From Flavobacteriaceae bacterium (GTDB lineage Bacteria; Bacteroidota; Bacteroidia; Flavobacteriales; Flavobacteriaceae), in contig JABAZA010000058.1 in the NCBI GenBank assembly GCA_018608725.1, forward strand, positions 1 through 36,185: DNA of 36,185 nt, read 5' to 3'. Position numbers and translations under genes: made by a program. The notes under the pieces were generated by a model. The model had not been told where the DNA came from. It was given only the letters and a program-made list of their open reading frames with translations, and ran no database searches. Of this stretch, positions 14,140 to 30,554 are shown piece by piece; position 1 is the first letter of the stretch; each line of letters opens with the position of its first letter.

Positions 14140-16482
14140 TTATTGAAATTTTAATTGCTCGTTTTTATCCCAAAGACCCCAATGTGCGCCAACATCGCCT
14201 TCGTGATGCACCTTACACGATTCATCAAATGAGGAGAAATAAAACATTGGTACTTTATTTTGTTGTGCCCAATTGACTGTATTTATAAAGTATTTCATCG
14301 CATTATTTTCTGAAGGGTATGCAGCATTCGTAGGGTTGCCTTGACTTGGCCAACCTGTTTCTGTAATTATAACAGGCTTCCCGTCAGATACTTTTTGTAT
14401 AACCGCATACATTTGCTTTAAATACGTTGCCGATTGATCAATGCTACAACCTTCCCAAAATGGGTAACAGTTTACTAACAAAACATCGCATACTTCAATA
14501 AGCTTCGGACGTTCTACAAATTGGTAATAGGCATCCACGTATCCCACAGGAATTCCAGGCAATGCTTTTTTTACTCTATTAATGTATGCAATCAGATTTT
14601 CCTCGCTGAGTTCTCCACGCATTAAGGTTTCATTTCCAACAACTGCAATATCTACTAAACCAGATTTTACGAGCTTTATCAGTGCTATAATCTCTTTTTC
14701 GTTTTGATTTTTATCATCACCAATCCAAGCACCAACCATCGTTTTTAATCCTTTTGCTTTAGCAATTTTAGGCGTATGTTGGTTGCCCTCTGTACATGAG
14801 AAAGATCGTACCCACTTGGTATAAGGTGCAATGACCTCCATCCGTTTACTGATTTGAGACTGAGATAATTGATCTCCAATATTTTGCCCTTCTAAATACG
14901 GACTAAAACACAACCCGTGAAGACCATTACTCAATGTGTTTGAAAAAAGGGTTTTAATTTCTGCATCTGATTTGGAGGTGAAATCAGTATCGGTATCTAA
15001 ACCTACATTAAGACCTAGATTAGAAAATTCGAGAAGTTTATTTTCTTTGTAATATGTGTTTAACTTTTTAGGTTGTGCTTTACGGTTATCTAATGCTGTT
15101 CGGATTTCATTAGCGCGTTCTTCATCGATACTATAATCTTTCATGATATACATCGCGAAAAGTGTACCTACCATTGGGAAAAAACAAAAGAAAGCGTGTA
15201 ATCCGTTAACTGCTTCTTGCTGATCTAGGGTTGATAAATCTGAATTAAAACCAACAAGCCATATGATTACACCACTTAAGGCTCCAGCGATTGCATAACC
15301 AACTTTTACCATCCACCAATAAATTGCTCCAAAGGTTCCTTCTCTTCGTTTGCCTGTATTTAATTCATCTATATCAATAACATCGGCTGTCATAGACATC
15401 ATAATCGTGAACAGGCTTCCAATACCAAAAGAAAAGAAAGGGAGGGCTATGATATACATCCAAGGTTTTCCAGGGATGAATAAAAAATAGAGCATTATAT
15501 AACCAATAATTGAAATCCCCTGACAAGCCATAAACGCTTTCTTCTTCCCTATTTTTTTTGATAACCAAGAAACAATAGGGATTACAATAAATGTAGTTCC
15601 TAACGCTCCTAGACACCCAAATAATGAGACCCATATTCCCGATGCTCCTGCATCTCCATTAAATAATTTATATACAATCACAAAAAAGGTGAGTGAAGCA
15701 ACGGTATTAAAAGCATTAAAAATTAAAAACGTAGCACCGCAAAGCTTCCTAAATTCTTTAATTTTAAAAGCTTCTACAAAACTGATGTATATTTTTTTTA
15801 GACTATTGCCAATATTTGACCAGTTTAAAGGTTCGTAATCTTTATCAAGAGTTGATTCTCCTTTAATAAATAAAGCTGGGACAATAGCACAAAACGCACA
15901 AGGAATAGCAACCCATATTGCTAATTCTCTAACGGCCACTTCCGCAGATGGAAACCACTCAGGATCATACATGATTATCCAAAATAATGGTGCAATTACC
16001 CATGCCCACTGCCCTATCCATTGGGCAATAGCCATAATATTTGTACGCTCATGAAAATCATCGCTCATTTCATAGCCCATGGCAACATAAGGAACACTAA
16101 AAAAAGTGAGGCCCAAATAAAAAATGATAGACCACAAAAAGAAATACCAAAAATTAAATTGTAATGAATTTTCTTTAAATAACTGCCACATAAAAATGTA
16201 AGCAATTCCCATAATAATTCCACCTATTAATACATACTGTCGTCGTCGTCCCCATTTTGATTTAGTATTGTCGGAAACAAAACCCATGATTGGATCTGAT
16301 ATAGCATCAAATAATCTAGGAAACAGATATATCATTCCCCACATTAGTCCAGAAAACTTTAAATCTTCTACTAAGACAACCATAAATATTCCTAAAATGG
16401 CTGGAAACATTTGATTGGCAAGCATGCCTATACCAAAGGCAACTTTTTGCCCGAAAGGAACTTTTTTAGAATTAATAGACAT
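14140..16482 (-). CDS. MFS sugar transporter fused to a C-terminal GH17 domain
   Basis: One unbroken 780-residue frame joins two functions. Residues 1-450 are a GPH/MelB-type sugar:cation symporter with about 12 membrane helices; the signature DPIMGFVSDNTKSKWGRRRQ spans 63-82. After a linker (about 450-515), residues 516-780 form a GH17 domain with acid/base Glu618 (VVGNETLMR) and nucleophile Glu708 (IITETGWPSQG), so it looks catalytically complete. MFS C-termini lie in the cytoplasm, so the enzyme should hydrolyse beta-1,3-glucan oligosaccharides as they enter. The gene lies between a GH30 gene and a free GH17 gene. The fusion is not a frameshift product. Coupled import and cleavage is inferred. 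Confidence 0.92.
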   Translation of the reverse strand: MSINSKKVPFGQKVAFGIGMLANQMFPAILGIFMVVLVEDLKFSGLMWGMIYLFPRLFDAISDPIMGFVSDNTKSKWGRRRQYVLIGGIIMGIAYIFMWQLFKENSLQFNFWYFFLWSIIFYLGLTFFSVPYVAMGYEMSDDFHERTNIMAIAQWIGQWAWVIAPLFWIIMYDPEWFPSAEVAVRELAIWVAIPCAFCAIVPALFIKGESTLDKDYEPLNWSNIGNSLKKIYISFVEAFKIKEFRKLCGATFLIFNAFNTVASLTFFVIVYKLFNGDAGASGIWVSLFGCLGALGTTFIVIPIVSWLSKKIGKKKAFMACQGISIIGYIMLYFLFIPGKPWMYIIALPFFSFGIGSLFTIMMSMTADVIDIDELNTGKRREGTFGAIYWWMVKVGYAIAGALSGVIIWLVGFNSDLSTLDQQEAVNGLHAFFCFFPMVGTLFAMYIMKDYSIDEERANEIRTALDNRKAQPKKLNTYYKENKLLEFSNLGLNVGLDTDTDFTSKSDAEIKTLFSNTLSNGLHGLCFSPYLEGQNIGDQLSQSQISKRMEVIAPYTKWVRSFSCTEGNQHTPKIAKAKGLKTMVGAWIGDDKNQNEKEIIALIKLVKSGLVDIAVVGNETLMRGELSEENLIAYINRVKKALPGIPVGYVDAYYQFVERPKLIEVCDVLLVNCYPFWEGCSIDQSATYLKQMYAVIQKVSDGKPVIITETGWPSQGNPTNAAYPSENNAMKYFINTVNWAQQNKVPMFYFSSFDESCKVHHEGDVGAHWGLWDKNEQLKFQ

Positions 16483-16532: not shown

Positions 16533-18008
16533 TTATGGTAATAATATAGTTTGTAGTGTTTGTGGTTGAATTGTTATTGACTTTGAAGTTTCTACTAAAG
16601 AGAGTTCAAAAGATTTTAATGTTTCTCCTTCGTTAAAGACCACAACTGCGATTGAACCGTCAGGGTTTTGTGCAGCAGTAACTTGTAACTCTTTATCCGA
16701 ATTATCTAACCCAATTACTTTAGCGCCAGGACGAATGTATTTGCTGAAATGTGCCATTGTATAATATAAGGGAGTAAAATAGACTTCGTCGGCATCGGGA
16801 TCAACGATGATTGGAGCTACACACCAGTTTTCAAACCAGTTTGGTCCCCCTTGTCTATCAAGTACCATATTCCAATCGACCCAACCGTCAACCCAGTTAT
16901 TTAAGCAGCCAATAATATCTCTTGCATATCTATTAACGGGGGCATATTTTGGGTGCAAATATTTCTTAGCGGGTTCTCTCCAGTCGTAACCCCAATCTGT
17001 TGCTTCTTTAGACCAATACCATTTGTCATCTTGCCATTTTGGGATTTCTGAATCTATACAACCTTCTGTTTCTATGAGGTATTTGTTAGGGGCTTTGGCA
17101 TGTGCGTATTGCAAGGCTTTTGGGAAAAAATCATAGGTGCTTTCATACCAATGTATTGCAGTTCCGGCAAAGTATTTAGAGGAAGCTTCGTCTTTATACA
17201 TATCATCGACCCATTCTTTTAAACCATCTCTGTTTTGATCGTAGCCTAAGATTTTAATATCTGCTTTTCCTTCGGCTTCCAATTTTGGACCTAAATAGTT
17301 TTGAACAAAATCTGTTTCTTCTTCTGGGGAGAAATGCATACTTTCCCAGTTGTTACCATTTCCATGTGGCTCATTTACGGGTGTTAAGCCCCAAATATCA
17401 ATGCCTTCAGCTTTATAAGAATCTAAATATTTAGAGAAAAACAAGGCAAAGGAGTCGTAATATTCTGGAAGTAGTTTTCCTCCTACATAGTTGTTATTGT
17501 CTTTCATCCAAGGTGGAGCGGTCCATGGAGAGGCAATAATTTTAAATCCATCTTCAGAAATAGCCATGGCTTCTTTTATCATTGGAATTAAATCGTCTTG
17601 ATCTTCTTTGATACTGAAATGTTCAAGCTCAAGATCATCGGCTATTGGCGCGTATGTATAATTATTTAATGAAAAATCACAAGAACTTATATGTGTACGA
17701 GTCAATGAATAGTTTGCTCCTTTTTCACTAAAATAAGCCTCAAGTATTTTGGTTCTATTTTTTTTACTTAAACGATTTAGTAAATAGGCCGAAGATTCCG
17801 TAAATGACCCCCCAAAACCAGTGATAGTTTGGAATGTTATTTCAGGATTAAGTTGAATTTTAGAAGGATTTTCAGAAATTTCAAATTCTGAGACTTTAGT
17901 CAATTTATTCCCGTTTACAGAAGTTTCATAAACAGTAACTTCCAAGGGTTTTTTGGACGTGCAAGCTGTGAGCATTACAGATAAAATTAAAAAATGATAC
18001 GTTTTCAA
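16533..18008 (-). CDS. GH30 beta-glucanase lipoprotein, probable laminarin beta-1,6 debranching enzyme
   Basis: GH30 enzymes of this type cut beta-1,6-linked glucose; in laminarin they remove side branches. The acid/base is in GLTPVNEPHGNGNNW and the likely nucleophile in YLIETEGC; FQTITGFGGSFTESSAYLL opens the catalytic barrel and a small beta-domain closes the protein. I chose the TTG at 18008-18006, giving 491 residues and a compact lipoprotein signal (MKTYHFLILSVMLTAC, Cys16). A TTG at 18059 would add 17 hydrophilic residues and overlap the upstream gene by 32 bases, spoiling the signal. No suitable ATG exists. The start lies 19 bases after the stop of the GH17 lipoprotein gene, in the same unit. 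Surface or periplasmic location follows from the lipobox. Confidence 0.88.
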   Translation of the reverse strand: MKTYHFLILSVMLTACTSKKPLEVTVYETSVNGNKLTKVSEFEISENPSKIQLNPEITFQTITGFGGSFTESSAYLLNRLSKKNRTKILEAYFSEKGANYSLTRTHISSCDFSLNNYTYAPIADDLELEHFSIKEDQDDLIPMIKEAMAISEDGFKIIASPWTAPPWMKDNNNYVGGKLLPEYYDSFALFFSKYLDSYKAEGIDIWGLTPVNEPHGNGNNWESMHFSPEEETDFVQNYLGPKLEAEGKADIKILGYDQNRDGLKEWVDDMYKDEASSKYFAGTAIHWYESTYDFFPKALQYAHAKAPNKYLIETEGCIDSEIPKWQDDKWYWSKEATDWGYDWREPAKKYLHPKYAPVNRYARDIIGCLNNWVDGWVDWNMVLDRQGGPNWFENWCVAPIIVDPDADEVYFTPLYYTMAHFSKYIRPGAKVIGLDNSDKELQVTAAQNPDGSIAVVVFNEGETLKSFELSLVETSKSITIQPQTLQTILLP

Positions 18009-18027
18009 GTTATTTGATTTAGGTGGT

Positions 18028-19308
18028 TTATAGTTTATTTTTTGTTGGGGGTAATTCAACTTCTAGTAATAATGCTTCTTTATTGCCATTATAGGTTTTC
18101 GTAATAGGATTGCCTCCACGGGTTAATCCATCAAAAACACCTTGATCTACCAAGTCCCAAAGGGCATATTTTGCTTTACCATCTACTGTAAATAACCCAA
18201 AATAGTTTTCAGATCCTCCCTTATTATGAGCATCTTTCCATGGTTCATCAAAAGCTTCAAAATAAAAGCATGACATATTATTTTCATTCGTCCATTGACG
18301 GATGTTATTATAATAAATGGATTCTTTATACTCATCGGTTGCTTTTGATCCTTTGGCACCATAAAATCCATTAGAAGCACTTGCCCATCCAGTTTCCCCA
18401 ACATGAATTGGCTTGTATATTCCTAAACTTTTAATATAACGCGCTACACTATCGACTTGAGAAATGGCGTATGTATTGGCGCGATTCATAGCAATATCAA
18501 TTCGTTTTAAACTAGAAAGTTCTGTTTCATTTCCAAAAACGCCCCAAAAAACGGGGTTATAGTGGGTGTCATGCATGGGATAGGTATGAACAGATAAATA
18601 ATCCACAGCTTTGATTAATTTTGTAAGGTCTTCCACATGGTATTGAGGATCTCCCCCGCCCCAAGAAGCAAAATTATCCGAACTGGTAATCCAAAGATCT
18701 TTTGATAAATCTCCTTTTTCTTTTAAGGATTGTAAATGTGTAACCCATTTTAAAATCACATTGGGTTGTACATAATAAGAAGTAGCCCATTTTACCATGG
18801 ATTCATTTCCTACAGCAATGACTTTTACAATCTCAGGATATTCTTGTGCTAAAGAAACCGCACGATCAATTTCTGCTGCATTGTTTTCGCTTTCTATGTT
18901 GTGGTCTACTGGTTTATCTGTCCAGGCATTTTTACAATCAATCCAAGCCCCTAACATCAAATACATTTCAAAAGTGGAGTCTTCATTTTTTAGTTCGCGG
19001 ATTGCTTTTAAAATGTTAGATGTATGCGCTAATTGAACATTATAAGTTCGTAATATTCGGATATTCATCGCGTGAAGAATTTTCATATCTTCTTTAAGCT
19101 CTCCTATTGTAGGTTGAAAATCTCTTGATGATTTTCGATACCCACCATAAGAGATGGCTAAATAGTTTGAATTTCCTAATATATCTTTAGCAGTCACTTC
19201 TTTTTGTCTTTGATCGTTTGGTATGCGTTCTTTTTGTTTGTTTTCTTTACAGGACATTACAAGAAAAACAAGCAGTATTAAATTTAATATGTATGTTGTT
19301 TTTCTCAT
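18028..19308 (-). CDS. GH17-like beta-1,3-glucanase lipoprotein
   Basis: This 426-residue lipoprotein (signal MRKTTYILNLILLVFLVMSC, Cys20) carries a divergent GH17 domain. The acid/base Glu169 is in VIAVGNESMVKW and the nucleophile Glu305 in PIHVGETGWASASNG. ISYGGYRKSS, ILRTYNVQLAHTSNIL, YLMLGAWIDCKNAW and CFYFEAFDEPWK are the other family blocks. It differs clearly from the two cytoplasmic GH17 domains of this locus, so it is not a product of the same recent duplication. It should act outside the inner membrane on laminarin or its oligosaccharides, and may be an endoglucanase or a transglycosylase. It lies 15 bases after the GH149-like gene and just before the GH30 gene. Confidence 0.88.
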   Translation of the reverse strand: MRKTTYILNLILLVFLVMSCKENKQKERIPNDQRQKEVTAKDILGNSNYLAISYGGYRKSSRDFQPTIGELKEDMKILHAMNIRILRTYNVQLAHTSNILKAIRELKNEDSTFEMYLMLGAWIDCKNAWTDKPVDHNIESENNAAEIDRAVSLAQEYPEIVKVIAVGNESMVKWATSYYVQPNVILKWVTHLQSLKEKGDLSKDLWITSSDNFASWGGGDPQYHVEDLTKLIKAVDYLSVHTYPMHDTHYNPVFWGVFGNETELSSLKRIDIAMNRANTYAISQVDSVARYIKSLGIYKPIHVGETGWASASNGFYGAKGSKATDEYKESIYYNNIRQWTNENNMSCFYFEAFDEPWKDAHNKGGSENYFGLFTVDGKAKYALWDLVDQGVFDGLTRGGNPITKTYNGNKEALLLEVELPPTKNKL

Positions 19309-19323
19309 AATCTCCTATCGACA

Positions 19324-22300
19324 TTATTTTAGTCGTTCTTTTTTAATTTGCACATTTATTTGAACAACTTCACCATTACGATTAAATACTTTATTACTTA
19401 TTTCTGTGTCTAAGTTTAAGCTGTTAAACGTTTTTGTGGCTCCATTACTAAAATCAACCGTTAAACTGTCTTGATCAGCAATCGTATATATAACAGGGAC
19501 TTGACAATAGGTGAAACACAAAGAGTCCTTAGAAATCAAAATGCTATCTTTATTCTTAGGGATTGCGATGTAATGAAATATGTTACTTTCTTGTAAAAAT
19601 TCATCTTTTCGCAATAAACGTGGATTAAATCCGAGTTTTCCATCGGAAACCTCTACGCCTAATTCACCAAAACGAGATAAAACATCTTCTTTTACTTGTC
19701 CCGTCATTCCGGGTTGTTGGGCGCCTTTTCCTGCAGGTGTATGTGAATAAGCATCGGTTGGGAATGCGCCATACAGTTTTGGTGATTTATGTACACCAAT
19801 TCCTGCATTAATTTCATAATAATGATCTAACAAACTCCCTATTGTAACTGCATCTGTTTCAGAATCGATGGCTGAATTACAAGTTTCCAACACTGCCAAT
19901 TGCAATTTTGAAACCATATGCCAATAAATAGACCCTAAACCTTCATAACCATAAAATGTTCCTGAACGTCCTGTAAAAGCTTTATGATTAAAGACTTCTT
20001 CAAAAATTTGAAGAACTTTTGGAGTTTCTGATTTAGCAAGTGCTTCATAAGAAGTTCCTGCAAGTTCTAATAGAGCTGCTTTTAAATCATTAGCATTTTT
20101 AAAGTTTCCGTTGAAATGGTGATCTCCATTAACGTCTTTCTCTAAAATCCGCACATTTCCATCGGAAACGAGTTGTTCCAATAATTTAGAGGATGCTACA
20201 GCAGACTCTGAAATTGTATTACGCTCAATAAACCCTTTTAATTCTTTGTTCGGATATAGTAAATAACTGTACTGATCGGGACGGAACAGTTTACTGGCTT
20301 TCATTGCATCTAAAACAGATAAGGATTGTTTAGAAGATAAATATTGTGAGCTTAATACCGCAACCTGCCCTTCTAACATTTCATCTAAATATGAAATTGA
20401 AACGCTGTTATTTTCATTGATGGTCATCAAATTATAGGCGTGATATAAGTTATCTTCTCGCTTATTTACTTCAATTGAGTGCTCTAAATACTGGAGACTT
20501 AGGTCAATAAATGATTTTATATCTTCAATAGCAATTTCATTTTTTCTTCCTGAAAAAGCGGCTTTATAAATTTGATCTCTATAATTACTTCCTGCGGTTC
20601 CTAAGGCATCTAAGATGTTTTTTCTGTCTGTATCATTGATACGCTCAGAAAGCAACTGTTGATTATCTTTAAATGTTGTATGAATGGCATTGAAGAATGT
20701 AACAAGCTCTTTGGAAACTTCTACGGTTTCTAAATCGGATTGTACTACAACTGTGTCAAAGAATTTTAGGAAACGTCGTAAATAATACAAGGTAACCATA
20801 GACACTCCACTTCCTACTAAGGCGTTGTTAGCATCGTTCCATTCTGGACGTTGTGTATTCATCCAAATTCCACCTTCTGGAATAAAGTTTGAAAGTTTAG
20901 CTAAAGTCGTGGCTAATATTTTTTCAATGAAATTAACTTTTACAATGAATCTATTTTCATCGCGAAGTAAAGCACCATCCGCTCCCAGTTCTACGCGTTG
21001 TTCTCTAATTTTATGATCTAATGCTTCATCAAATTCAATGGTGTCTTTTGGATTTTCAAGCAGAGCGTCATAACTCTTAATTTTATAAGGAACATTGGCA
21101 TAAACAAATAAATCTTTATCAAATAGAGTTGCTAATTTTCCTGGCTGATGGCTTTCAATAAACTCTAAAAATTTGAGTAAATAAATCACTTGGTGATCGC
21201 CCCAATATCCAATGTATGACCAAGGATCGTCTGGCTCAATAGTTTCCCAATCGAACCCCCCTTTGGTAACTCGGTATGGGTTGTAACCATCAAAAGTAGT
21301 TGCGTTCAAAAACTTATGAATCATACTTTCAATAAACGCTGGATAAGAATGCGCTAAGGCTTCCCAGTTTTGGAAAATATCACGCCAATTTCCTTCGTAA
21401 TCTAATATTTTTGAACCGTCTATTTCACTTTTGGTGTTGATAGAGAATTTATTCCAAGGACGACTTGGATCTCCATGACGACGGCTAAATTTTAAGGGCA
21501 TATATTCAAAACATAAGCGTCTAAAATTCGTATCATCAACTTCGTTAGCGAGTGATTGTAGAACTGAAAGTGAAAATTTTTCTGGAAGTTTCTCGATAAC
21601 TGTTTCAGTGGTTCTTGAAACTTTTTTATTGGCTTTTAAAAGATAATTTTGGAAATCCCATTTTTCAATCTGATAATTATCATCAAAAATCCCACCTCTC
21701 ATAATATTAAATAAGGTATTTGAAAAATGACGTATATCTCTAAATTTATCTGCTGAAAGCTGTAATCCATCAGAAGCTGCATTTAAATCAATTAATCGTG
21801 AAGTTCCTTTCTCAATTTTTTGGTTGATCAGTTCCCATAAACCATCATTGGCTTTAATTTGATTAATTAGTTTTGCAATTGATGAATGGTTTTTATTCAC
21901 TTCTGCGACAAGCATCCATTCTTTGTTCTCTAGCGAAGATAATACGATTTGTGAATTCACAAAATAAGCACCTTTTTCGGCTTTAACATCTGTTTCTTCT
22001 GAAATAGGGTGTAGTTTTCTAAAGTTATCGAGCTGTAATGACGATAATAAATATTTAGAATTTTCTAAACCTATAGACCAAACGATGTTAGCTTTTAAAG
22101 CTTCACTAGGCTCCGCTTTATCTACAATGATCGCACTTAAAGCATAAATTCCTAAACCAGAACTTTTTTCTAACTCACTGCGTTTATATGCATCTACTAA
22201 ATTACTACTTGCATTCTGTAAATCACTTCCAACTCCGTAAGGCAATATGTTTTGGATTCCATCCAATACATTAATTTCAACCTTAGATGTTGAAGTATTG

Positions 22301-22797
22301 ATAAGTTTCGATTTTTTTATAAATCCAAATGTATTTGTAGAATTCCATTGGTACTGAAAGGTCAACTCTAAATCGTGATTAATTTCTTCAAATAAGACTT
22401 TGTTGCCATACTCATTTTTGTATAAGTTTCGAGTAGTTCTGTACGTTCCAGCAAAACGATCAGAAAAAGGTTCCCATAAATGAACTTGATCATTTTTGAC
22501 GACTTGAAAAATAGATTTACTTCCTGTGATTTCGGCGGCTTCCGTAATTTTATCATCTGTATAATACGGAAACAAAGCGAATTCAGAGTTTTTTCTTCCA
22601 GCTGTTAGGCCTCCATTACTTGAAATAAACATCCAGTGATTAGAATCACTAACGATGCTCATAAAAAATGGTCTCATTTTATCACTATTAGAAATCTTGT
22701 AATAAACTTCGTTGTTGATATTTACTAAGGTTCCTTTTATATCCGCTCCTTGATTTACGTCTTTATCTTTGCCTGAAAAAATAGCTTTTTTTGTCAT
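19324..22797 (-). CDS. GH149-like beta-1,3-glucan phosphorylase
   Basis: This 1157-residue protein without a signal peptide resembles the GH149 beta-1,3-oligoglucan phosphorylases, which use phosphate to release glucose 1-phosphate and save ATP. The length and the GH94-like plan fit: an N-terminal beta-sandwich (GTYRTTRNLYKNEYGN, LTFQYQWNSTNTFGF), then an (alpha/alpha)6 barrel (RHGDPSRPWNKFSI, NWRDIFQNWEALAHSYP, DPWSYIGYWGDHQVIYLLKF) with the motif QRPEWNDANNALVGSG. Asp655 of that motif is the best candidate for the general acid by analogy with GH94. It opens the downstream laminarin unit. A possible -7 box (TATTTTTG, minus, 22906-22913) lies upstream. The family call is from recognised motifs, not a search. 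Confidence 0.85.
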   Translation of the reverse strand: MTKKAIFSGKDKDVNQGADIKGTLVNINNEVYYKISNSDKMRPFFMSIVSDSNHWMFISSNGGLTAGRKNSEFALFPYYTDDKITEAAEITGSKSIFQVVKNDQVHLWEPFSDRFAGTYRTTRNLYKNEYGNKVLFEEINHDLELTFQYQWNSTNTFGFIKKSKLINTSTSKVEINVLDGIQNILPYGVGSDLQNASSNLVDAYKRSELEKSSGLGIYALSAIIVDKAEPSEALKANIVWSIGLENSKYLLSSLQLDNFRKLHPISEETDVKAEKGAYFVNSQIVLSSLENKEWMLVAEVNKNHSSIAKLINQIKANDGLWELINQKIEKGTSRLIDLNAASDGLQLSADKFRDIRHFSNTLFNIMRGGIFDDNYQIEKWDFQNYLLKANKKVSRTTETVIEKLPEKFSLSVLQSLANEVDDTNFRRLCFEYMPLKFSRRHGDPSRPWNKFSINTKSEIDGSKILDYEGNWRDIFQNWEALAHSYPAFIESMIHKFLNATTFDGYNPYRVTKGGFDWETIEPDDPWSYIGYWGDHQVIYLLKFLEFIESHQPGKLATLFDKDLFVYANVPYKIKSYDALLENPKDTIEFDEALDHKIREQRVELGADGALLRDENRFIVKVNFIEKILATTLAKLSNFIPEGGIWMNTQRPEWNDANNALVGSGVSMVTLYYLRRFLKFFDTVVVQSDLETVEVSKELVTFFNAIHTTFKDNQQLLSERINDTDRKNILDALGTAGSNYRDQIYKAAFSGRKNEIAIEDIKSFIDLSLQYLEHSIEVNKREDNLYHAYNLMTINENNSVSISYLDEMLEGQVAVLSSQYLSSKQSLSVLDAMKASKLFRPDQYSYLLYPNKELKGFIERNTISESAVASSKLLEQLVSDGNVRILEKDVNGDHHFNGNFKNANDLKAALLELAGTSYEALAKSETPKVLQIFEEVFNHKAFTGRSGTFYGYEGLGSIYWHMVSKLQLAVLETCNSAIDSETDAVTIGSLLDHYYEINAGIGVHKSPKLYGAFPTDAYSHTPAGKGAQQPGMTGQVKEDVLSRFGELGVEVSDGKLGFNPRLLRKDEFLQESNIFHYIAIPKNKDSILISKDSLCFTYCQVPVIYTIADQDSLTVDFSNGATKTFNSLNLDTEISNKVFNRNGEVVQINVQIKKERLK

Positions 22798-23056: not shown

Positions 23057-23086
23057 ATAAGGCTAGAGTTTTACCTCTAGCCTTAT
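23050..23086 (-). terminator. Terminator between the two laminarin transcription units
   Basis: ATAAGGCTAGAG (23057-23068) pairs perfectly with CTCTAGCCTTAT (23075-23086) around a six-base loop. On the minus strand the 12-bp stem is followed by a long U-rich run. It starts eight bases after the stop of the PKD lipoprotein gene, so it ends the upstream unit. Confidence 0.93.
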
Positions 23087-23093
23087 AAATAAA

Positions 23094-25004
23094 TTATTGA
23101 AACGTTATATTATCAAAATAGATCACATTGTCAGCTGATCTTCCACCTAAATCGAAATCAGGGAATACAACAATTTGATCAATGTTTGTAGAACCATCTA
23201 ATCCGTTTCCAATACGACTGGTAAAATCAAACGTCAACTCTTCCCATGCATTAACTACTGTATTGGGAACTTTTATCTCTATTTGTGCCCCTCCAGAAGG
23301 GTTTACTAATTTAACCCCCACGTCACTAATTACAGTTTTGTAAACCATAACTTTTATGATCGCATTTGAAGCCGAAAGATCCCAAGTAATTCCCATTTCT
23401 CCATGTGCAGTTTCAGTACCAGCCCAAGGGTTACCAGTTTGAAGTGCTGTGATTTTAGCTACAGTCGCAGAGTTATTAATTCCTGATGCATTTGGATTTG
23501 CTACAAATTCTAGTGGTGGGTTTGAATCATTCTCAAAAACATTCCAAGTCCAATTTGCTCCATGTCCAGATGTTTCAAAATCAATAGGTAGCGTAAGGTT
23601 ATAAGAACCTGTGCCGCCACCGCCGCCACCGCCGCCACCGCTATTGCCGTTGCCGTATAGTCTTAAATCATCAAAATAATAGGTATCTGTACTCGTTGTA
23701 TTTAAATCAAAGAAAAGAACAATCTTGTTAAATTTATTACTGTCCGCAGCTGTAAAAGGGAATGTTAATTCTTCCCATCCACTCGTAACGGAAGTCGTTA
23801 AAAATTGTTCAGTATTGTTACCAGCATTTCCAATTTCTTCTAACTTTAATCTCACCTCAGTATTTGGTCTTGCAGACCATACTTTAATTTTAAAACCTGT
23901 ATTTGCATTAAAATCTAGTTTTGCATCTAAATCGTATTGATTGTTATCCCAAGGGTTGTTATTACCTCTTACCACTTGACCAACTTTACACGAAGTGTTT
24001 ACAGCATTGTCAAAATCTGGATTATCTACCCATGAAAAACCTGCTCCATCAGAAATAAAATCTGCAGATGGGTCTGTTTGAAAGGTCATATTAACGTTTG
24101 CAGCACTGTAAGATTCCGTTGTTTCAGGAGTACATGCGCCGCCACCGCCGCCGCCGCCGTTGCCGTTGCCTTCGCCATAAAGCATTAGATCGTCTATATA
24201 ATATGTTTGTTCAGTTGAAGTACCTAATTCAAAGAACACTACAATTTTATCAAATTTGTTAGAATCTGCGCTTTCAAAATCAAAGCTAATCTCTTCCCAT
24301 GCTCCAGCACTTTCTGCCGACGTGGTAGCTGAAACTTCTTTAAAAATACTTGAATCGGTCTTATCTTCTAATTTTAATAATACAGCTGTACTTGCAGTTG
24401 GAGACCATACTTTTAGTTTAAAGCCTGTATTTGAATTAAAATCTAACTTCGCATCTAAATCAAGTTGATTGTTTGCATACTGTGCTGCACTCGTTCTATC
24501 GATCTGTCCGACTTTACAAGATGTATTGACATCATTTTCAAAATCTGGGTTGTCGATCCAAGAAAAACCTGCACCATCTGAAGTTATATCAGCAGTTGGG
24601 TCTGACAAAAATGTCATATTAAAGTCAGAAGCAGATAAAGACTCTGCTGTTTCAGCATCACAAGTTCCTACGACTTCAGCAACATTAATTGTGATTTCAT
24701 CTGTGAAGATATCGAATGCTCCTGCAACGTTTGATGATCTTAACACTACTAAGTATGTTCCGTTTTCATAAACGTTTACTGGGTTGATAAGATTTGAAGT
24801 ACTTTCATCTCCAAAATCCCAATCATACATAGAGGCATTTATTGATGTATTAATAAAGGTTACTGTTCCTGTGCTCGCATTAATCGTGTGCGTAAAACCA
24901 GCTGTAAGTTGTGGTAACACCGCTTCATCGTCGTCACAACCCATAAAACTGATTGCTAAGATAAGTAGTGATACTTTTTTTAATGTTTTAATTAAATTTT
25001 TCAT
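23094..25004 (-). CDS. PKD-domain lipoprotein with three carbohydrate-binding-like modules
   Basis: This 636-residue surface lipoprotein (signal ending AISFMGC, Cys23) has no catalytic motif and is probably a surface glycan-binding protein for laminarin. A PKD domain spans about 32-109 (YDWDFGDESTSNLINP). Modules A (about 114-277) and B (about 291-451) are close copies of each other, each with SDGAGFSW[IV]DNPDF, NTSCKVGQ, LDAKLDFN and a final YY[IF]DDL. Module C (about 468-636) is a more distant jelly-roll-like domain ending VIYFDNITF. Glycine-rich linkers (279-289 and 452-466) join them, encoded by GGN repeats. It follows the GH16 gene by 22 bases and ends the upstream unit. Binding to beta-1,3-glucan is inferred from context. 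Confidence 0.85.
   Translation of the reverse strand: MKNLIKTLKKVSLLILAISFMGCDDDEAVLPQLTAGFTHTINASTGTVTFINTSINASMYDWDFGDESTSNLINPVNVYENGTYLVVLRSSNVAGAFDIFTDEITINVAEVVGTCDAETAESLSASDFNMTFLSDPTADITSDGAGFSWIDNPDFENDVNTSCKVGQIDRTSAAQYANNQLDLDAKLDFNSNTGFKLKVWSPTASTAVLLKLEDKTDSSIFKEVSATTSAESAGAWEEISFDFESADSNKFDKIVVFFELGTSTEQTYYIDDLMLYGEGNGNGGGGGGGACTPETTESYSAANVNMTFQTDPSADFISDGAGFSWVDNPDFDNAVNTSCKVGQVVRGNNNPWDNNQYDLDAKLDFNANTGFKIKVWSARPNTEVRLKLEEIGNAGNNTEQFLTTSVTSGWEELTFPFTAADSNKFNKIVLFFDLNTTSTDTYYFDDLRLYGNGNSGGGGGGGGGTGSYNLTLPIDFETSGHGANWTWNVFENDSNPPLEFVANPNASGINNSATVAKITALQTGNPWAGTETAHGEMGITWDLSASNAIIKVMVYKTVISDVGVKLVNPSGGAQIEIKVPNTVVNAWEELTFDFTSRIGNGLDGSTNIDQIVVFPDFDLGGRSADNVIYFDNITFQ
23623..23655 (-). 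repeat. GGN trinucleotide repeat coding the second glycine linker
   Basis: A run of GCC/ACC triplets on the plus strand (GGC/GGT on the minus) codes nine Gly after GNGNS. It is strikingly GC-rich for this genome and prone to slippage in steps of one residue. Confidence 0.8.
24135..24175 (-). repeat. GGN trinucleotide repeat coding the first glycine linker
   Basis: A second GCC-rich run codes GEGNGNGGGGGGG between modules A and B of the PKD lipoprotein. Its make-up matches the repeat near 23623, so both linkers probably arose with the module duplication. Confidence 0.8.
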
Positions 25005-25026: not shown

Positions 25027-25962
25027 CTATTGTTCATATACTCTTACGTAATCTACTAGCATGTTTTGTGGAAACGTCTCTCCACTCACAGGACTACCAG
25101 GGAAGTTCCCTCCAACGGCCAAATTGATGATGATATAAAACGGTTTATTGAAAACCCAATCTCCCGTCACATCAGTCGGTTCTATTGCTTCTGTGTCATC
25201 AGTTGCTGGAACGCCATCGTTTAATGTATAAATAGCATCTTCTGGAGTGACTTCAATATCTGAAGGTGTAATTTGATTGTATAATACATCATCAATGTAA
25301 TAGTTGATATATTCTGGACCCCACTCGATTCCAAATACATGGAATCCGGCATCATAACGTTCATTTCCTAAGTCATAACTTTTAGTCACTTGTCCTTGAG
25401 GATCTGTTTCACCAGAATAGCCTGGTCCGTGAATAGAACCACTTACCTTTGTAGGTTCTTGTCTTCGGTATTCCATAATATCAATCTCACCACATTGAGG
25501 CCATCCGTCAACATCATAATTATCTCCTAAGAGCCAAAATGCAGGCCAAAGTCCAGATCCACCAGGAACTTTTATACGGGCTTCAAAACGTCCGTAGGCT
25601 TGAGAAAATTTTCCTTTAGTAAGTAGCTTAGCGGATGTGTATGAAGATCCGTTATAATTCTCTTGAATAGCAGAAATTACTAACAATCCATTTTGAACGG
25701 TTACATTTTCTGGACGGTCGGTGTAATATTGCAATTCGTTGTTGCCCCATCCATTGACACCTGTTCCTATATCATAGTTCCAGATTTCAGAATTCGGAGC
25801 GCCTTCTACATCAAATTCATCTGACATAACCAAATTTGTATAAGTCGCAACCGTTTGAGTTTCTTCGTTAGAACAATTTGTAAGCGTTAGAACTAATGCA
25901 AAAACAAAGGTCTTCAGCACTGCTGTTTGAACCCGCATTTTATGTTTATTTATATTATTCAT
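25027..25962 (-). CDS. GH16 endo-beta-1,3-glucanase (laminarinase) lipoprotein
   Basis: This GH16 enzyme cuts internal beta-1,3 bonds of laminarin at the cell surface. The catalytic signature GEIDIMEY supplies nucleophile Glu159, Asp161 and acid/base Glu164 in the laminarinase arrangement ExDxxE. SDEFDVEG, ELQYYTDRPENV, GRFEARIKVPGGSGLWPAFW, VFGIEWGPEYINYYIDDVLY and FYIIINLAVGGNFPG are standard GH16 blocks, and the C-terminal DYVRVYEQ closes the jelly roll. There is no extra binding module. The lipoprotein signal ends LTLTNC (Cys30 from the ATG at 25962). A second in-frame ATG eight codons later (25938) would give a more usual signal (Cys22) and is equally possible. It lies between the two glycan-binding lipoprotein genes. 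Confidence 0.95.
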   Translation of the reverse strand: MNNINKHKMRVQTAVLKTFVFALVLTLTNCSNEETQTVATYTNLVMSDEFDVEGAPNSEIWNYDIGTGVNGWGNNELQYYTDRPENVTVQNGLLVISAIQENYNGSSYTSAKLLTKGKFSQAYGRFEARIKVPGGSGLWPAFWLLGDNYDVDGWPQCGEIDIMEYRRQEPTKVSGSIHGPGYSGETDPQGQVTKSYDLGNERYDAGFHVFGIEWGPEYINYYIDDVLYNQITPSDIEVTPEDAIYTLNDGVPATDDTEAIEPTDVTGDWVFNKPFYIIINLAVGGNFPGSPVSGETFPQNMLVDYVRVYEQ

Positions 25963-25991: not shown

Positions 25992-27404
25992 CTAGTTTCC
26001 TCTATAAAAATAAATATTATCTACATACAGTTCTGTTAACGAAGAACCGTTTATGTTTTCCATAATAAGAAGTCCCATATTATCTTTAACATTTAGAGTT
26101 ATATCAAATTCTAATGTATTCCAAACACCTGGTTCAAAATCAGTTCCATTAAAAAATATTTGTTGGAATGTATCATCACCACCACCATCAACTTGATCTG
26201 CTCCAAAATCTCTTACTGTAATTAAAAAATCAAGGTTTGAAGGTTCTTCAGGAATATAAACATTGAGATGAACCTTAGAAAATTCAGTAGCATCAATTGT
26301 TGGATTTGCAAATTGAATTCCTACAAAATTAAAATTCGTGTAGTGAATCATATTGTTACCACTGACTACAAAATCACTAGATAAAGTTGTTTGCCATGGC
26401 TCCCAATAGCCGTTAAAAAAGTCAACAGGAACATTTGTATAGCTATCACTAAAAAGCGAGATTACATCACTAGAGTTTCTTGTTGGAGTGGGTGCAACAT
26501 CGAATCCACCGACAGCACTTACGGTCATTGAACCCTGTGCTTCTACGCCTCCTAAACTGGCTGTGATAACCGCTGTACCATCACTAACACTAACAACACC
26601 AAATTGATCAACGAATGCTAAACTAGGATCTGAAGATGTAAAGTCAAAATAACTTGGTGCTACATTAACTGTTTTGTTAAGCCCAGAACCCAAATTAAAC
26701 GTTTGTGTAAGGCCTGTTATTTCTAAATCAATTCCTGCAAAGGCATCTTGTACAAGATCTTGACCATTTAAAATAGCAGGTCTTGGTTGACCAATGGTTC
26801 CGAGTCTTTCAAATTTTAATTCGTCAATCCAAAAGGTGTAACCTAAACCGCCTGTGTTTTGAGTTCCTGCCGAATACCAAAACATTCCTCTTTCATCAAA
26901 AAGTTTTGAAGGGTCTGGAATTGGAATCACATATTTTACCCAGTTTGTGCTCAAACTTACATTGGTATCGTTTACTTGATATTGGTTTAACCCAAAGTCT
27001 TGTCCAAATCCAATTTCTCCAATCACAACCCCTTGAGATGCTTTTGCCCAAAAAGTAAGTGCATCGAATTCTGTAAGATCACGACCTGAGCCTTCGACTC
27101 TAAAAATACCCCCAGCATAACTTCCATCTGGATCATTTGCATTTGGCACATCAAATCTCATGGAAGCCTGGCTTTCATAGCCTTCATTTTCATCAACTGA
27201 CCACGCTGTTGCTTTAGAACCTAAATACGGAAAGTAAAAATCACTTCCAAGTCCTATGGGTGAATCAGTGAAGATTTCGCCTGTTTTGGATAGGGTAGCA
27301 AATTCGGCTTCATCAGAAATATCTCTTTCACAACTCATGGTGATTACAAAAAGTAAACCTGTGAGGAGTGTGATTCTTGAATACATAAATTTTATATTTT
27401 TCAT
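25992..27404 (-). CDS. Surface glycan-binding lipoprotein with a Big_2-like domain
   Basis: This 470-residue lipoprotein (signal ending VITMSC, Cys25) has no catalytic motif. An N-terminal jelly-roll-like module (about 30-205) holds GGIFRVEGSGRDLTEFDALTF then WAKAS and ends TFWIDELKFERLG. A bacterial Ig-like (Big_2) domain follows (about 220-300: FDFTSSDPSLAFVDQFGVVSV then DGTAVITASL). A C-terminal binding-like module (about 315-470) has GNNMIHYTNFNFVGIQF, LDFLITVRDFG and ends LTELYVDNIYFYRG. The plan (binding module, Ig spacer, binding module on a lipid anchor) fits a SusE/SusF-like protein. It lies 12 bases after the GH-barrel gene and before GH16, so a laminarin-binding role is likely but inferred. 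Confidence 0.8.
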   Translation of the reverse strand: MKNIKFMYSRITLLTGLLFVITMSCERDISDEAEFATLSKTGEIFTDSPIGLGSDFYFPYLGSKATAWSVDENEGYESQASMRFDVPNANDPDGSYAGGIFRVEGSGRDLTEFDALTFWAKASQGVVIGEIGFGQDFGLNQYQVNDTNVSLSTNWVKYVIPIPDPSKLFDERGMFWYSAGTQNTGGLGYTFWIDELKFERLGTIGQPRPAILNGQDLVQDAFAGIDLEITGLTQTFNLGSGLNKTVNVAPSYFDFTSSDPSLAFVDQFGVVSVSDGTAVITASLGGVEAQGSMTVSAVGGFDVAPTPTRNSSDVISLFSDSYTNVPVDFFNGYWEPWQTTLSSDFVVSGNNMIHYTNFNFVGIQFANPTIDATEFSKVHLNVYIPEEPSNLDFLITVRDFGADQVDGGGDDTFQQIFFNGTDFEPGVWNTLEFDITLNVKDNMGLLIMENINGSSLTELYVDNIYFYRGN

Positions 27405-27416
27405 TTTTACAGTGTT

Positions 27417-30400
27417 TTATTTTCCTATATTAATATGAATGTATGTTCTAATTTCCCATTCGCTTCCATTAGGAAATCCTACAGAACTGATAGGCGGTAC
27501 TGCTGGATAGGTATTTGGAGGAATGAACATTGGGGAGTAACGTGGCGAGTATTCGTTTAGTGAACGCCATGTTCCACGTACTCCAACTTGTGTATTTGGA
27601 AGGATAAACCAATCTGGTTTTCCTAAGGTTGTTGATAAATCTAACATTAACTGTACAGGATATGTTAGGTTAAAATCACGGTGATAATCAAAAGGTCCCC
27701 AATCGTTAAATTTAAGAGTGTGGGTTAGTTTTAATTTGTTATAGATGAATCGAATATCTCCACCAAATCGTTCTATTAAACGATCATCACTACCGTTTGC
27801 TTGTGCGTTACCGGCATAAAAATTAGCGATAAATCCAAGGTCTGGATTTAGTTTAGAAACAATTCGTGAATGAGCTTCCCATAAATCTTGAGCAGGAGCT
27901 GCATTTGGGAATGCAAAAGAAGTACGATTCGCTAAGAAACCAACTGCTGCATCTTGAGCTGTTGGGTGATGACGAAATACAAAACCAAGGTTGAATGCAA
28001 ATTTTGCATCTTCAGCGCGGTCGTTATCCCACTCATACATCCATGTTCCTGGAGTTGGATCGTATGTTAATAAGAGTTCTCCAGCTGTAGTTTCTCTGTT
28101 GGCTCTAACTGCAAATGGATCATCTTGAACGTTTCTTAGACGTCCAGGTCCTCCATCTAAATCGTTGGGCATTGCAGCAACAATTGGTTTTTGCCATAAG
28201 AAATTAGGAGCAATTTGAAAATCTCCAAAGGTATATGCAAACCCAGAAAGGAAGTTGTTTTGGTTACCGCTTCCAGAATCTTTTAATCTCCATCCAGTAA
28301 ATGTTTGTGTTTGATCGGATCCACCATTAGCAACTAAGCCCATGCTTGCCCCTTGTGCATACCACATAAAAGCTCCTTTTTGATAGGTTAACTTGGCTTT
28401 TGCTCCCCAGTTGTCTTTTTCATTAATTTCATCTGTATAGATTACATAATTATCCGTAGTTCCTTCAGCGATTTGAAATTCACGACCGTTTAAAGGTTGT
28501 CCACCCCAGATACCACCAACATCAAAAATAAAGTTGCCAAATTTTCTTGTGGCATGTAACGTAACTCTACGTGTTTTTGGAAGTGGAATTGCAATTGAAG
28601 TTACTGCACTCCCAACATCATCAATATCTTCGTGGTAAACGGTTGTTAGATCCCAGTTGCCAAATCTTTTACCGTACTTTAAAATTACGGCTGGATTCGC
28701 TCCCCACCAAAGTTGAGGACCAAAGGCCACTTTTAAACCATTTAAAGCTCCTTTAGCATCAAATTCAATTCCTGAAATTTCACCGTTATACAAATCTAAA
28801 TTTGGCCCATAATTGGCTTCTCTATATAAGTTAAAGAAATCTCCTTCATAGGCCCAGTGATAGTGTCCTGTTCTATAAAAACCTCTTAAATTAAAGTCTT
28901 TAGCATTCCAGTCAAATTCAGCGTTATAAATTCTTACTCTGTTTGGGTCTGTAATAGTTACATTACCATCATCTGTATTTACATCAAATGAGCGTCCCGG
29001 GTTTTCATAAAATATTTCATCAATTGGATTTTCAGCAACATTACCAAGAATATTGAAATTTACATTGGCACGCATATTAGAAGCAGGGTTTCCTTCTACT
29101 CCAATAAAATACGATTGCATGTGGTCAAAGCCGAGTTCATTTGGATAAGCATTCGAATTAGGGTCTTCATTGTCGGGAGTTGTAATAAGTGTTCCGCCCG
29201 TATTGAAGGTTGTAGACTCAATTCTCAAATTGCTTAGTTTTAATTTTTCATTGCCTCCCAAAGCTGCTTTATCTCCTCTTGCACGAAGCACCGCATCCAT
29301 TAATTCGATGTTGTCAAAATGAGTTTCAACAAAATCCGGAGTCACGCCGGCTTCGTAAGGGTTTAATTGGTGTGCTATTTTTAAAGCATAATAAGATGCT
29401 CGTGGATATAAAGTGTATAGACCTCTTGAATTTGTTGGACCTTTTGCACAAACTCCAAACCATTCCTCATTCATGTTATTTTCTCCTGGAGCGTAATCAA
29501 GTTGATAACCACCATTTGACCATGAGGCATTGTTGTCATGAACTTCTAAATTTTTAGTTTGTCCAAATTTCCACCAACCATCACTAAACTGGAATGTGAA
29601 ACCACCAATTGCATTTTCTGATTTTCCTAAACCAGCTGCATTCTGATAAATATCTTTCCAATTTGAAACCATGTAATAGGCCTGCATTTTTTGGTCTTCG
29701 GCATTATCAAGCGCATTAAATGAATCTGAACCAAATTCAGTTAACATGATTGGCATGTCTAATTTTTCTTTAACAGTCTCAAATGCGTCTGTAAAAGAAG
29801 CACCACGATACATATTCGTTCCAAAAATATCAACATCCTTACATTCTTCAGCAATGATATCTATAAATAAAACATCCCCATTACAGATTGCTACAGGATG
29901 AGACGAATCGATACTTTTCATTTTAATTGATGCATCATTCATCAATTTATACATAGGTCTTCCACGCTCTTCTCCAACGAAATCTCTTTTTTCTTCTTCG
30001 TCTGGAAAATCTTCTGTTTCTGCACCTGCCCAAAACAGTCCGTAATTATTTTCATTTCCTAATAGAAACATTAATAAACCAGGAGTGTCCTTATAATCTT
30101 CGGCCAATTTGGTGACTTCAGATAGTAATAGCTCTTGTGTTGCTTCATCGCTATAATCTGTTACTGGTACCCATGCACCATTTATAGTAAGTCCATAACG
30201 ACCAAAAGAGTGGTTTAACATGGTATAAATACCATAGTTTTCATAAATGTATTGGATCCATTTTGGTTGTGCTCCTGTATATTGTCTTATGACATTAACA
30301 CCCATATTTTTCAATAACCCCATTTCTGCATCTAATGCTGCTTTGATTACATCATCAGACTGGTTCCATAAACTGTAGGAGTAATTTGTGCCAATTGGGA

Positions 30401-30554
30401 AATAGTCCCAGTTCATTCCGTTGATCATGAAGTCTTCTCCATTCACTACTAATTTCATCCCATTTTCATTATTAACAACCTTTACCTTGTCTGCCTGAGC
30501 AAAAGCGGTTGTTGTAATTAAAAAAAGAATTAATCTTACCAAAGTGTTTTTCAT
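27417..30554 (-). CDS. Clan GH-A glycoside hydrolase fused to an outer-membrane beta-barrel-like domain
   Basis: This 1045-residue protein has a Sec signal (cleavage after TTTAFA, residue 19). Residues 24 to about 400 form a (beta/alpha)8 hydrolase like the GH2 C-domain or GH72. Glu168 in LMFLLGNENNYG is the likely acid/base and Glu273 in PIMLTEFGSDSF the likely nucleophile; IFGTNMYRGASFTDAF between them resembles GH72 glucanosyltransferases. From about 425 to the end the sequence is porin-like: amphipathic aromatic strands (FNLRGFYRTGHYHWAYEGDF, LKVAFGPQLWW, FIFDVGGIWGG, AFMWYAQGASMGLV) ending EIRTYIHINIGK. No TonB plug or TonB box is visible. It opens the laminarin locus. Action on beta-1,3-glucan is inferred from neighbours; a hydrolase or a transglycosylase are both possible. 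Confidence 0.8.
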   Translation of the reverse strand: MKNTLVRLILFLITTTAFAQADKVKVVNNENGMKLVVNGEDFMINGMNWDYFPIGTNYSYSLWNQSDDVIKAALDAEMGLLKNMGVNVIRQYTGAQPKWIQYIYENYGIYTMLNHSFGRYGLTINGAWVPVTDYSDEATQELLLSEVTKLAEDYKDTPGLLMFLLGNENNYGLFWAGAETEDFPDEEEKRDFVGEERGRPMYKLMNDASIKMKSIDSSHPVAICNGDVLFIDIIAEECKDVDIFGTNMYRGASFTDAFETVKEKLDMPIMLTEFGSDSFNALDNAEDQKMQAYYMVSNWKDIYQNAAGLGKSENAIGGFTFQFSDGWWKFGQTKNLEVHDNNASWSNGGYQLDYAPGENNMNEEWFGVCAKGPTNSRGLYTLYPRASYYALKIAHQLNPYEAGVTPDFVETHFDNIELMDAVLRARGDKAALGGNEKLKLSNLRIESTTFNTGGTLITTPDNEDPNSNAYPNELGFDHMQSYFIGVEGNPASNMRANVNFNILGNVAENPIDEIFYENPGRSFDVNTDDGNVTITDPNRVRIYNAEFDWNAKDFNLRGFYRTGHYHWAYEGDFFNLYREANYGPNLDLYNGEISGIEFDAKGALNGLKVAFGPQLWWGANPAVILKYGKRFGNWDLTTVYHEDIDDVGSAVTSIAIPLPKTRRVTLHATRKFGNFIFDVGGIWGGQPLNGREFQIAEGTTDNYVIYTDEINEKDNWGAKAKLTYQKGAFMWYAQGASMGLVANGGSDQTQTFTGWRLKDSGSGNQNNFLSGFAYTFGDFQIAPNFLWQKPIVAAMPNDLDGGPGRLRNVQDDPFAVRANRETTAGELLLTYDPTPGTWMYEWDNDRAEDAKFAFNLGFVFRHHPTAQDAAVGFLANRTSFAFPNAAPAQDLWEAHSRIVSKLNPDLGFIANFYAGNAQANGSDDRLIERFGGDIRFIYNKLKLTHTLKFNDWGPFDYHRDFNLTYPVQLMLDLSTTLGKPDWFILPNTQVGVRGTWRSLNEYSPRYSPMFIPPNTYPAVPPISSVGFPNGSEWEIRTYIHINIGK

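Follow-up and report, generated by a model that had tools for sequence, protein, structure and literature searches.

Laminarin is a major marine carbon store whose uptake in Bacteroidota is generally attributed to SusC/SusD systems. The closest described systems are the laminarin-induced polysaccharide utilization loci (PULs) of Formosa, one of which holds a major facilitator superfamily (MFS) transporter fused to a family 17 glycoside hydrolase (GH17) (PMC6246565), and a Muricauda laminarin locus whose upstream part includes a gene called a GH2 beta-glycosidase (PMC13188888). GH2 genes or laminarin PUL variants are mentioned in two further papers, with no barrel fusion named in their accessible portions (PMC11345257, PMC6298971). 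Here we analyzed a stretch of 36,185 nucleotides from a Flavobacteriaceae bacterium (assembly GCA_018608725.1, contig JABAZA010000058.1; hereafter the window) and the first gene of its laminarin locus (27417-30554, minus strand), which encodes a protein of 1045 amino acids (aa) from an ATG start. A preliminary description made from the sequence had given the position of this gene exactly, to which we add the strand, and had read it as a glycoside hydrolase fused to an outer-membrane beta-barrel.

Using a combination of structure prediction, alignment of relatives, and genomic comparisons, we tentatively propose, at close to even chances, that this fusion lets beta-1,3-glucan enter through the outer membrane and carries its enzyme at the inner end of the pore. 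Our data comprise the sequence, a fold-level model, topology signals, conservation, and gene linkage; the inner position of the enzyme, the partnership with a neighboring lipoprotein, and the conduction of glucan are inferred from them. The coordinates of all features are collected in Table 1.

Architecture of the fusion protein

At least 587 stretches encoding a relative of the fusion protein were found, from which 80 loci were kept, many of them cut by contig ends or by the fetched length. The window and 77 of these loci form the 78-row alignment A1; L019, L024, and L043 were omitted as broken or partial (G, C, and L numbers are our labels for genomes, contigs, and loci). Distribution across the phylum was evaluated in a sample of 296 genomes, for protein and barrel matches, and in one of 395 genomes, for matches to a barrel profile. 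With the fusion protein, NCBIfam returned nothing near its cut-offs and phmmer with the single chain against the PDB found no relative at E <= 1; the barrel profile matched a sole PDB entry, an antibody chain, at E 0.68.

AlphaFold2 modeling of the full chain on A1 (mean pLDDT 75, pTM 0.53) gave a (beta/alpha)8 domain with helices up to residue 428, followed by long antiparallel strands at residues 438-1042. A type I signal peptide recognized by eye agrees with the secretion proposed earlier for the enzyme half, and in the model the mature chain enters the TIM barrel almost at once. No lipobox was seen by eye in the window protein, and a lenient lipobox pattern matched six of 80 open reading frames (ORFs) of the fusion gene, none of them with an acidic tail. 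The sole Pfam domain of the window protein was the GH2 TIM barrel (PF02836, residues 70-286), which at 24.1 bits exceeds its gathering score of 21 and gives the protein a GH2 label; the GH2 N-terminal domain had no Pfam match at E <= 0.1. With the catalytic definition of clan GH-A taken as described for BuGH158, the acid/base Glu follows beta4 and is preceded by Asn, and the nucleophile Glu follows beta7. N167, E168, and E273 are invariant in all 78 rows and their strand positions fit the model, which bears out the earlier suggestion of an intact catalytic pair in a clan GH-A TIM barrel.

Foldseek searches with the catalytic part had GH158 (9oro, 2.9e-13; BuGH158 6pal, 1.0e-11), GH157 (9g5g, 2.2e-12), and GH2 beta-glucuronidases among their first matches, and VIA-align tied GH157, GH2, GH158, and a GH5 mannanase at Z 26-27. 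For GH158 the structural match (Z 26.7) is accompanied by a profile match to 9oro that spans residues 192-276 only (E = 0.024), and GH157 was matched by structure only (Z 27.2, 16% identity). Because the GH157 and GH158 entries bear laminarinase names or laminari-oligosaccharide ligands, action of the enzyme domain on beta-1,3-glucan, as hydrolase or transglycosylase, is a reasonable reading of locus and fold. The GH72-like features mentioned in the preliminary description proved weak, and GH72 membership was rejected for the window protein, which has no PF03198 match at E <= 0.1; the best score among scanned relatives was 23.4 bits against a gathering score of 25.9. Shorter, distant relatives of the enzyme domain (frames of 335-354 aa) lie beside GH149, GH17, and MFS genes at L124, L152, and L154, and the one at L124 has sub-threshold similarity to GH72.

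The C-terminal 600 or so residues are probably a closed 24-strand outer-membrane pore barrel with no plug. A barrel-only model (input A2, residues 430-1045) reached pLDDT 72 and pTM 0.72, and by our own count it contains 24 main strands, with extra hairpins within loops. The TIM barrel and closed beta-barrel expected from the preliminary description were thus both predicted, the latter with 24 strands rather than 14-18. A soluble beta-sandwich, which would have spoken against a barrel, was seen in neither model and is ruled out by both models and by the Foldseek results. All 50 listed Foldseek matches of the barrel, TonB receptors, AlgE, and porins among them, were outer-membrane barrels; because their TM-scores were just 0.24-0.43, we take the resemblance to be to the general barrel fold and not to a close relative. 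In the full-chain Foldseek search, TonB-receptor barrels matched the second half (8p97, 6.9e-10), and the best VIA matches of the barrel were the ushers PapC and FimD (Z 13-14), followed by MtrB (12.6). The PapC and FimD ushers have 24 strands.

At E <= 1, the barrel part of the window protein matched no Pfam family, and no plug, usher, or porin family is among the seven to which one or more of the 78 barrels matched. The absence of a TonB plug, part of the preliminary description, is in line with these searches, and the likeness to fimbrial ushers is structural only. SusC proteins combine TIGR04056 and a plug domain with a 22-strand barrel, and classical autotransporters have a pore-spanning helix between the passenger and a 12-strand barrel. 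The fusion protein resembles neither, with no plug family, 24 modeled strands, and no helix at residues 429-437 of the model. The full-chain pTM and the TM-scores of the barrel matches, at about 7-12% identity, weigh against this interpretation of the C-terminal half.

Orientation and function of the barrel

Strand connections alternate between long and short, with a mean of 22.9 residues for odd-to-even connections and of 4.9 for even-to-odd ones, most of the latter being exactly 2 (Mann-Whitney p = 1.1e-4). Indels follow the same division, with 670 indel cells across A1 in odd-to-even connections and 2 in even-to-odd connections. In outer-membrane proteins, long variable connections lie outside and short turns are periplasmic. 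Both ends of the barrel are on the short-turn side, where strand 1 begins. From the alternation and the indel split we infer that both ends are periplasmic, which would most likely place the enzyme at the pore's periplasmic mouth. The core of strand 1 (residues 442-449) is strongly amphipathic, scoring 5.05 where comparable stretches of the enzyme (best of ten windows) have their 90th percentile at 4.11. The enzyme and strand 1 are separated by 9 residues in the window and by 9-12 across A1, and no helix is modeled between them (residues 428-438). Since barrel-less relatives end at about the start of strand 1 (for example, ...ARRDKGALESER compared with ...ARGDKAALGGNEKLKLS), this short linker can almost be counted as enzyme. 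Among the five barrel-less relatives, G461 and G119 carry what by eye are type I signal peptides lacking a lipobox, which would suit a periplasmic enzyme.

Several points weigh against this orientation. The assignment of short turns to the periplasm follows a general rule, strand 1 shows no clear faces over its whole length, and everything hinges on that strand: if it did not lie in the membrane, the enzyme would end up on the outer side. The preliminary description had indeed suggested a surface enzyme at the pore mouth, which would call either for a chain that threads the barrel lumen as in an autotransporter or for a first strand outside the membrane. The wide barrel could house a threaded segment, the 9-12 linker residues could, fully extended, just cross a membrane, some outer loops are conserved, and three of the five relatives without a barrel are lipoproteins and might be surface-located. 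Threading is nevertheless improbable because of the short helix-free linker and the barrel-less relatives that stop near strand 1, and the position and amphipathic core of strand 1, together with the plain type I signal peptides of the other two relatives, further oppose it. We regard a surface position as unlikely and set it aside, since loop/turn parity, indel distribution, and linker length all point inward.

The barrel could be a mere anchor. By several measures, however, it looks functional, as judged from its conservation. Mean column entropy is 0.82 for the barrel and 0.75 for the enzyme. Pore-facing strand positions are more conserved than lipid-facing ones (entropy 0.60 versus 1.00; strand-flip permutation p = 0.0008), with faces assigned by hydrophobicity from the same alignment as the entropy. 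The pore-facing side is the more conserved in 17 of 24 strands; counting against a conserved lining are that shared alignment and the seven strands, the first four included, in which the lipid face is the more conserved. Outer loops L3, L4, and L11 are near-invariant and rich in aromatic residues. Taken together, outer loops show no unusual conservation (0.87 versus 0.81 for strands), so only some of them appear special. The longest inner turn, T8, is a candidate contact with the enzyme domain.

The barrel was found only together with this enzyme. In the sample of 296 genomes, the protein was matched in 37 and the barrel in 29; the profile search detected the barrel in 35 of 395 genomes, exclusively in the fusion gene. 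These 35 include a broken copy without the partner lipoprotein described below (G235), a copy split by contig ends (G204), and a remnant (G119), and the four genomes new in the larger sample carry the full fusion with a confirmed enzyme. Use of the barrel as a general porin recruited elsewhere was not seen in either sample. The remnant, 64 residues of barrel over and past the stop of a barrel-less enzyme (C314:3444-3635, L157), is a visible case of barrel loss. Close enzyme relatives (52-63% identity) without an intact barrel occur in five genomes (G461, G119, G242, G104, and G123). In a tree of catalytic domains, which kept only every fourth locus among the fused rows of L002-L081, the fused label needs five changes, four of them forced by well-supported branches and one being L019, which is solo in the tree only through its broken frame and is not counted as barrel-less. 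Nested among fused proteins are G461 and a group formed by G104, G123, and G119. This pattern fits an early gain of the barrel and later losses, seemingly more than once, with the caveat that G242 lies on a long branch at the base. L019 itself is a contig filed under Rhodobacteraceae that carries a flavobacterial locus with the same aquaporin neighbor and is probably misbinned; its frame-broken fusion gene is 86-89% identical. Culturable carriers of the fusion gene include Kordia algicida (L071) and a Flavobacterium strain.

An ORF lies downstream of the fusion gene in 79 of the 80 loci, and in 78 of these 79 it is the same partner lipoprotein, the exception being L019. Full-length partners, taken by eye as matches spanning about residues 24-468, occur in 28 of the 296 genomes, all within the 29 that bear the barrel, and in none of the five genomes with a barrel-less enzyme. 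More distant enzyme relatives (G077, G139, G240, G267, G372, G473, and others) were excluded from this comparison; G126 has a distant partner relative (residues 57-386, 38%) and no barrel. The window's partner carries the acidic tail ERDISDEAEF after its lipobox Cys and a Big-like match below cut-off. In Bacteroidota, acidic tails of this kind are surface-export signals. Across the loci, 70 of 81 partner, 27 of 37 PKD-CBM, 55 of 84 GH16, and 44 of 57 GH17 ORFs showed a lipobox, and in 64, 26, 37, and 2 of these, respectively, an acidic tail follows it; GH17, predicted to be periplasmic in the accessible part of the Muricauda report, serves as an internal contrast to the acidic-tailed lipoproteins. 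The co-occurrence suggests that the lipoprotein works as the partner of the barrel. Weighing against this, the full-length partner of G144 is about 9.6 kb away, and co-occurrence could stem from a shared locus and not from contact.

These results bear on the anchor model, in which the barrel would do no more than tether a glucanase, periplasmic or on the surface, to the outer membrane. In its favor, lipid anchors in three of the five relatives without a barrel make anchoring seem useful, and the barrel has apparently been lost on more than one occasion. This idea, also raised in the preliminary description, is disfavored because conservation of the barrel is close to that of the enzyme; the better conserved pore-facing positions, the near-invariant outer loops, and the coinciding absence of barrel and full-length lipoprotein likewise make a pure anchor rather improbable.

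The preliminary description had also stated that there is no SusC. This is true of the locus and not of the genome: the window contains no SusC, none of the genome's 15 TIGR04056 matches falls on its contig (C17), and two SusC/SusD pairs are present elsewhere than at the laminarin locus. The pair on contig C97 is up to 65% (SusC) and 72% (SusD) identical to pairs that in relatives lie just upstream of the fusion, one or two genes away. Among the 64 loci with at least 7 kb of upstream sequence, 17 also carry SusC, so the barrel is not a simple SusCD replacement, and replacement is unsupported as a rule. Both these loci and the genome's own two pairs count against an entry port that stands in for SusC/SusD; where both occur, the barrel is an addition.

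In six of 32 fused genomes scanned, PF07980 (SusD) was unmatched. In three of these (G308, G066, and G255), no SusC exceeded the cut-off and neither PF07980 nor PF14322 revealed a SusD; G051 and G144 each have a single SusC, that of G051 barely passing the cut-off, and no SusD, and in G204 there are two SusC together with a match to PF14322. All six have other, partial TIGR04056 matches, probably to other TonB receptors. The local cassette of G066 and G255 comprises the fusion, partner, a ROK regulator, GH16, and MFS genes. From these gene contents, a glucan route without SusC/SusD is plausible. The entry route proposed in the preliminary description gains support from the conserved pore lining, from the lipoprotein that tracks the barrel, and from the three genomes without SusC over cut-off or SusD.

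For the entry port that we tentatively favor, surface lipoproteins (the partner, GH16, and PKD-CBM) would bind laminarin and cut it coarsely, and the resulting oligoglucans would pass inward through the barrel, steered by the conserved aromatic outer loops. The enzyme domain would cut or transglycosylate them as they emerge at the periplasmic exit, which would keep the inward gradient steep, and it might curb leakage by capping the wide pore. Degradation would then be completed by GH17, GH30, the MFS-GH17 fusion, and the GH149 phosphorylase. A stronger version, possible though doubtful, is a self-contained importer independent of TonB and SusCD, in which a plug-less 24-strand pore and its exit hydrolase pull glucan inward by cutting.

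The enzyme might also serve mainly as a gate that blocks a leaky, wide pore and opens on glucan binding, with catalysis secondary. TonB receptors carry their plug in an N-terminal position. The enzyme of the fusion holds the same place on a 24-strand barrel without a plug domain, and the long conserved inner turn could touch it. The catalytic residues, however, are fully conserved, as expected of an active enzyme, and we consider a primary gating role quite improbable. Least probable is that the barrel serves specifically to export or assemble the surface lipoprotein encoded next to it, which would account for their strict co-occurrence and for pilus ushers as the best structural matches, but an inner-side glucanase has no obvious export role, the ushers match at just 7-12% identity, no usher family was found, and L148, a locus with a barrel-less enzyme, has GH16 and PKD-CBM genes of the same kind.

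Features of the locus and neighboring genes

As the preliminary description held, the fusion gene heads a laminarin locus, in which GH149, GH16, GH30, and GH17 genes are also present. The cut-off exceeded by the GH149 phosphorylase is 1150 bits; two GH17 domains of the window lie above the Pfam cut-off and one below, and GH16 and GH30 were matched as well. Among the 80 loci, downstream genes include GH16 in 75, GH149 in 55, GH17 in 52, GH30 in 39, and MFS in 21. A hairpin parts the outer-membrane and surface block of the window from the inner block of GH149, GH17, GH30, MFS-GH17, and GH17 genes. Sigma-70-like sites and TANNTTTG were no more frequent at the locus than in shuffled sequences.

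Table 1. Positions of the fusion gene, its parts, and the neighboring genes in the window
Feature	Position	Strand	Basis
Enzyme-barrel fusion, 1045 aa, first gene of laminarin locus	27417..30554	-	ORF, AlphaFold2 model, full-length relatives
Type I signal peptide, residues 1-19, cleavage between AFA and Q	30498..30554	-	By eye; Q20 invariant in A1
Clan GH-A (beta/alpha)8 domain, residues 21-430	29265..30494	-	Pfam GH2_C; model; Foldseek/VIA: GH158, GH157, GH2
Predicted acid/base E168, after beta4, N167 before	30051..30053	-	Invariant 78/78; beta4 = 160-165 (model)
Predicted nucleophile E273, end of beta7	29736..29738	-	Invariant 78/78; strand 269-274 (model)
Probable 24-strand outer-membrane beta-barrel, no plug, residues 438-1045	27420..29243	-	Barrel-only model; strand/loop analysis; Foldseek/VIA
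Outer loop L3, residues 563-591; 15/29 positions invariant, 10 aromatic or His	28782..28868	-	Conservation analysis
Outer loop L4, residues 614-620 (QLWWGAN); 6/7 invariant	28695..28715	-	Conservation analysis
Inner turn T8, longest, residues 832-852; 10/21 invariant	27999..28061	-	Conservation analysis
Outer loop L11, residues 953-963; 6/11 invariant	27666..27698	-	Conservation analysis
Partner lipoprotein ("BigCBM"): Big-like region and C-terminal module common to other proteins	25992..27404	-	Conserved position; full-length co-occurrence; tail
GH16 lipoprotein, likely surface endo-glucanase	25027..25962	-	Pfam; lipobox tail
PKD + CBM_4_9 lipoprotein, surface-type tail	23094..25004	-	Pfam; lipobox tail
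Terminator-like hairpin, 12 pairs then eight T	23057..23086	-	Pattern match; such sites in region not above shuffles
GH149 beta-1,3-glucan phosphorylase	19324..22797	-	NCBIfam NF058639, 1808.6 bits
GH17 lipoprotein, FbGH17A counterpart by position (PMC6246565, accessible part)	18028..19308	-	Pfam below cut-off; non-acidic tail in family
GH30, likely beta-1,6-glucosidase	16533..18059	-	Pfam 264.7 bits; NCBIfam 1,6-glucanase below cut-off; FbGH30 activity (PMC6246565, accessible part)
Inner-membrane sugar transporter fused to GH17	14140..16482	-	Pfam MFS_2 + GH17; known fusion (PMC6246565, accessible part)
GH17, no signal peptide seen by eye	13204..14121	-	Pfam

The locus holds two transporter-enzyme fusions, one per membrane (27417-30554 and 14140-16482). 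Directly upstream of the fusion gene, 45 of the 80 loci have a same-strand ORF of 900-1060 aa, in one example (L008:6884-9703) a sensor-regulator of the Reg_prop/Y_Y_Y/LuxR type. This ORF is absent at the window's fusion gene, and a similar gene precedes SusC on contig C97. Elsewhere in the window, a rhodopsin-like gene (4042-4767, minus strand) adjoins a gene resembling those for carotene-cleaving, Blh-type membrane proteins (4877-5773, plus strand), both recognized by eye, and a Mg-chelatase/ComM-like gene (11537-13074, minus strand) is apparently split into two overlapping frames, possibly by a frameshift or an assembly error.

Relation to described systems

Our literature search covered titles and abstract openings and found no description of a fusion between a glycoside hydrolase and an outer-membrane barrel, with most subscription journals and preprints outside the search. 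Because published papers name the locus and a "GH2" and no barrel fusion, the gene and locus are already known; in the literature searched we saw no account of its architecture, orientation, or partner. If the proposed entry port is correct, it would be a second, possibly passive, route of glucan uptake, annotation by the catalytic domain alone would have hidden a transporter in well-studied laminarin loci, and the locus would have a transporter-enzyme fusion in each membrane with both enzymes on the inner side.

At the level of gene order, the Muricauda locus (PMC13188888) is like the window in having a GH2-labeled gene, GH16, and GH149 upstream of GH17, GH30, MFS, and GH17, and laminarin PUL 2 of Formosa sp. 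Hel1_33_131 (PMC6246565) shares the GH16-GH17-GH30-MFS order; a locus with the same neighborhood is also present in a metagenome-assembled genome labeled Formosa (L002). The counterpart of the fusion gene is called GH2 in Muricauda and is unnamed in Formosa, where gene order would place it two genes ahead of FORMB_24690 (GH16) in PUL 2; no barrel is mentioned in the accessible portions of either report, and the genes are equated by gene order. At the level of the domains, GH158 (BuGH158, 6pal; GH158(Pro), 9oro) and GH157 (9g5g, 9g4n) share the GH-A catalytic pair and fold with the fusion enzyme at only 12-20% identity in structural alignments, and BuGH158 has a C-terminal Ig-like domain that is not in the fusion protein model. 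PapC, FimD, MtrB, BtuB, ZnuD, and PfeA resemble the fusion barrel in barrel-level structure only (7-12% identity), and the fusion barrel is without their plug or usher families.

The nearest functional parallels are the MFS-GH17B fusion and the SusC/SusD utilisomes, each compared here as far as the accessible text of its report goes. Like the enzyme-barrel fusion, MFS-GH17B (PMC6246565) joins a transporter and a glucanase in one chain, and both are encoded in the window; MFS-GH17B lies in the inner membrane with its enzyme C-terminal, whereas the enzyme-barrel fusion has a predicted outer-membrane barrel with its enzyme N-terminal. The utilisomes (PMC7618045) likewise combine, at the outer membrane, a barrel with surface lipoproteins and an enzyme that degrades glycans, whereas the fusion is without plug or SusD and has its enzyme covalently joined, probably on the inner side.

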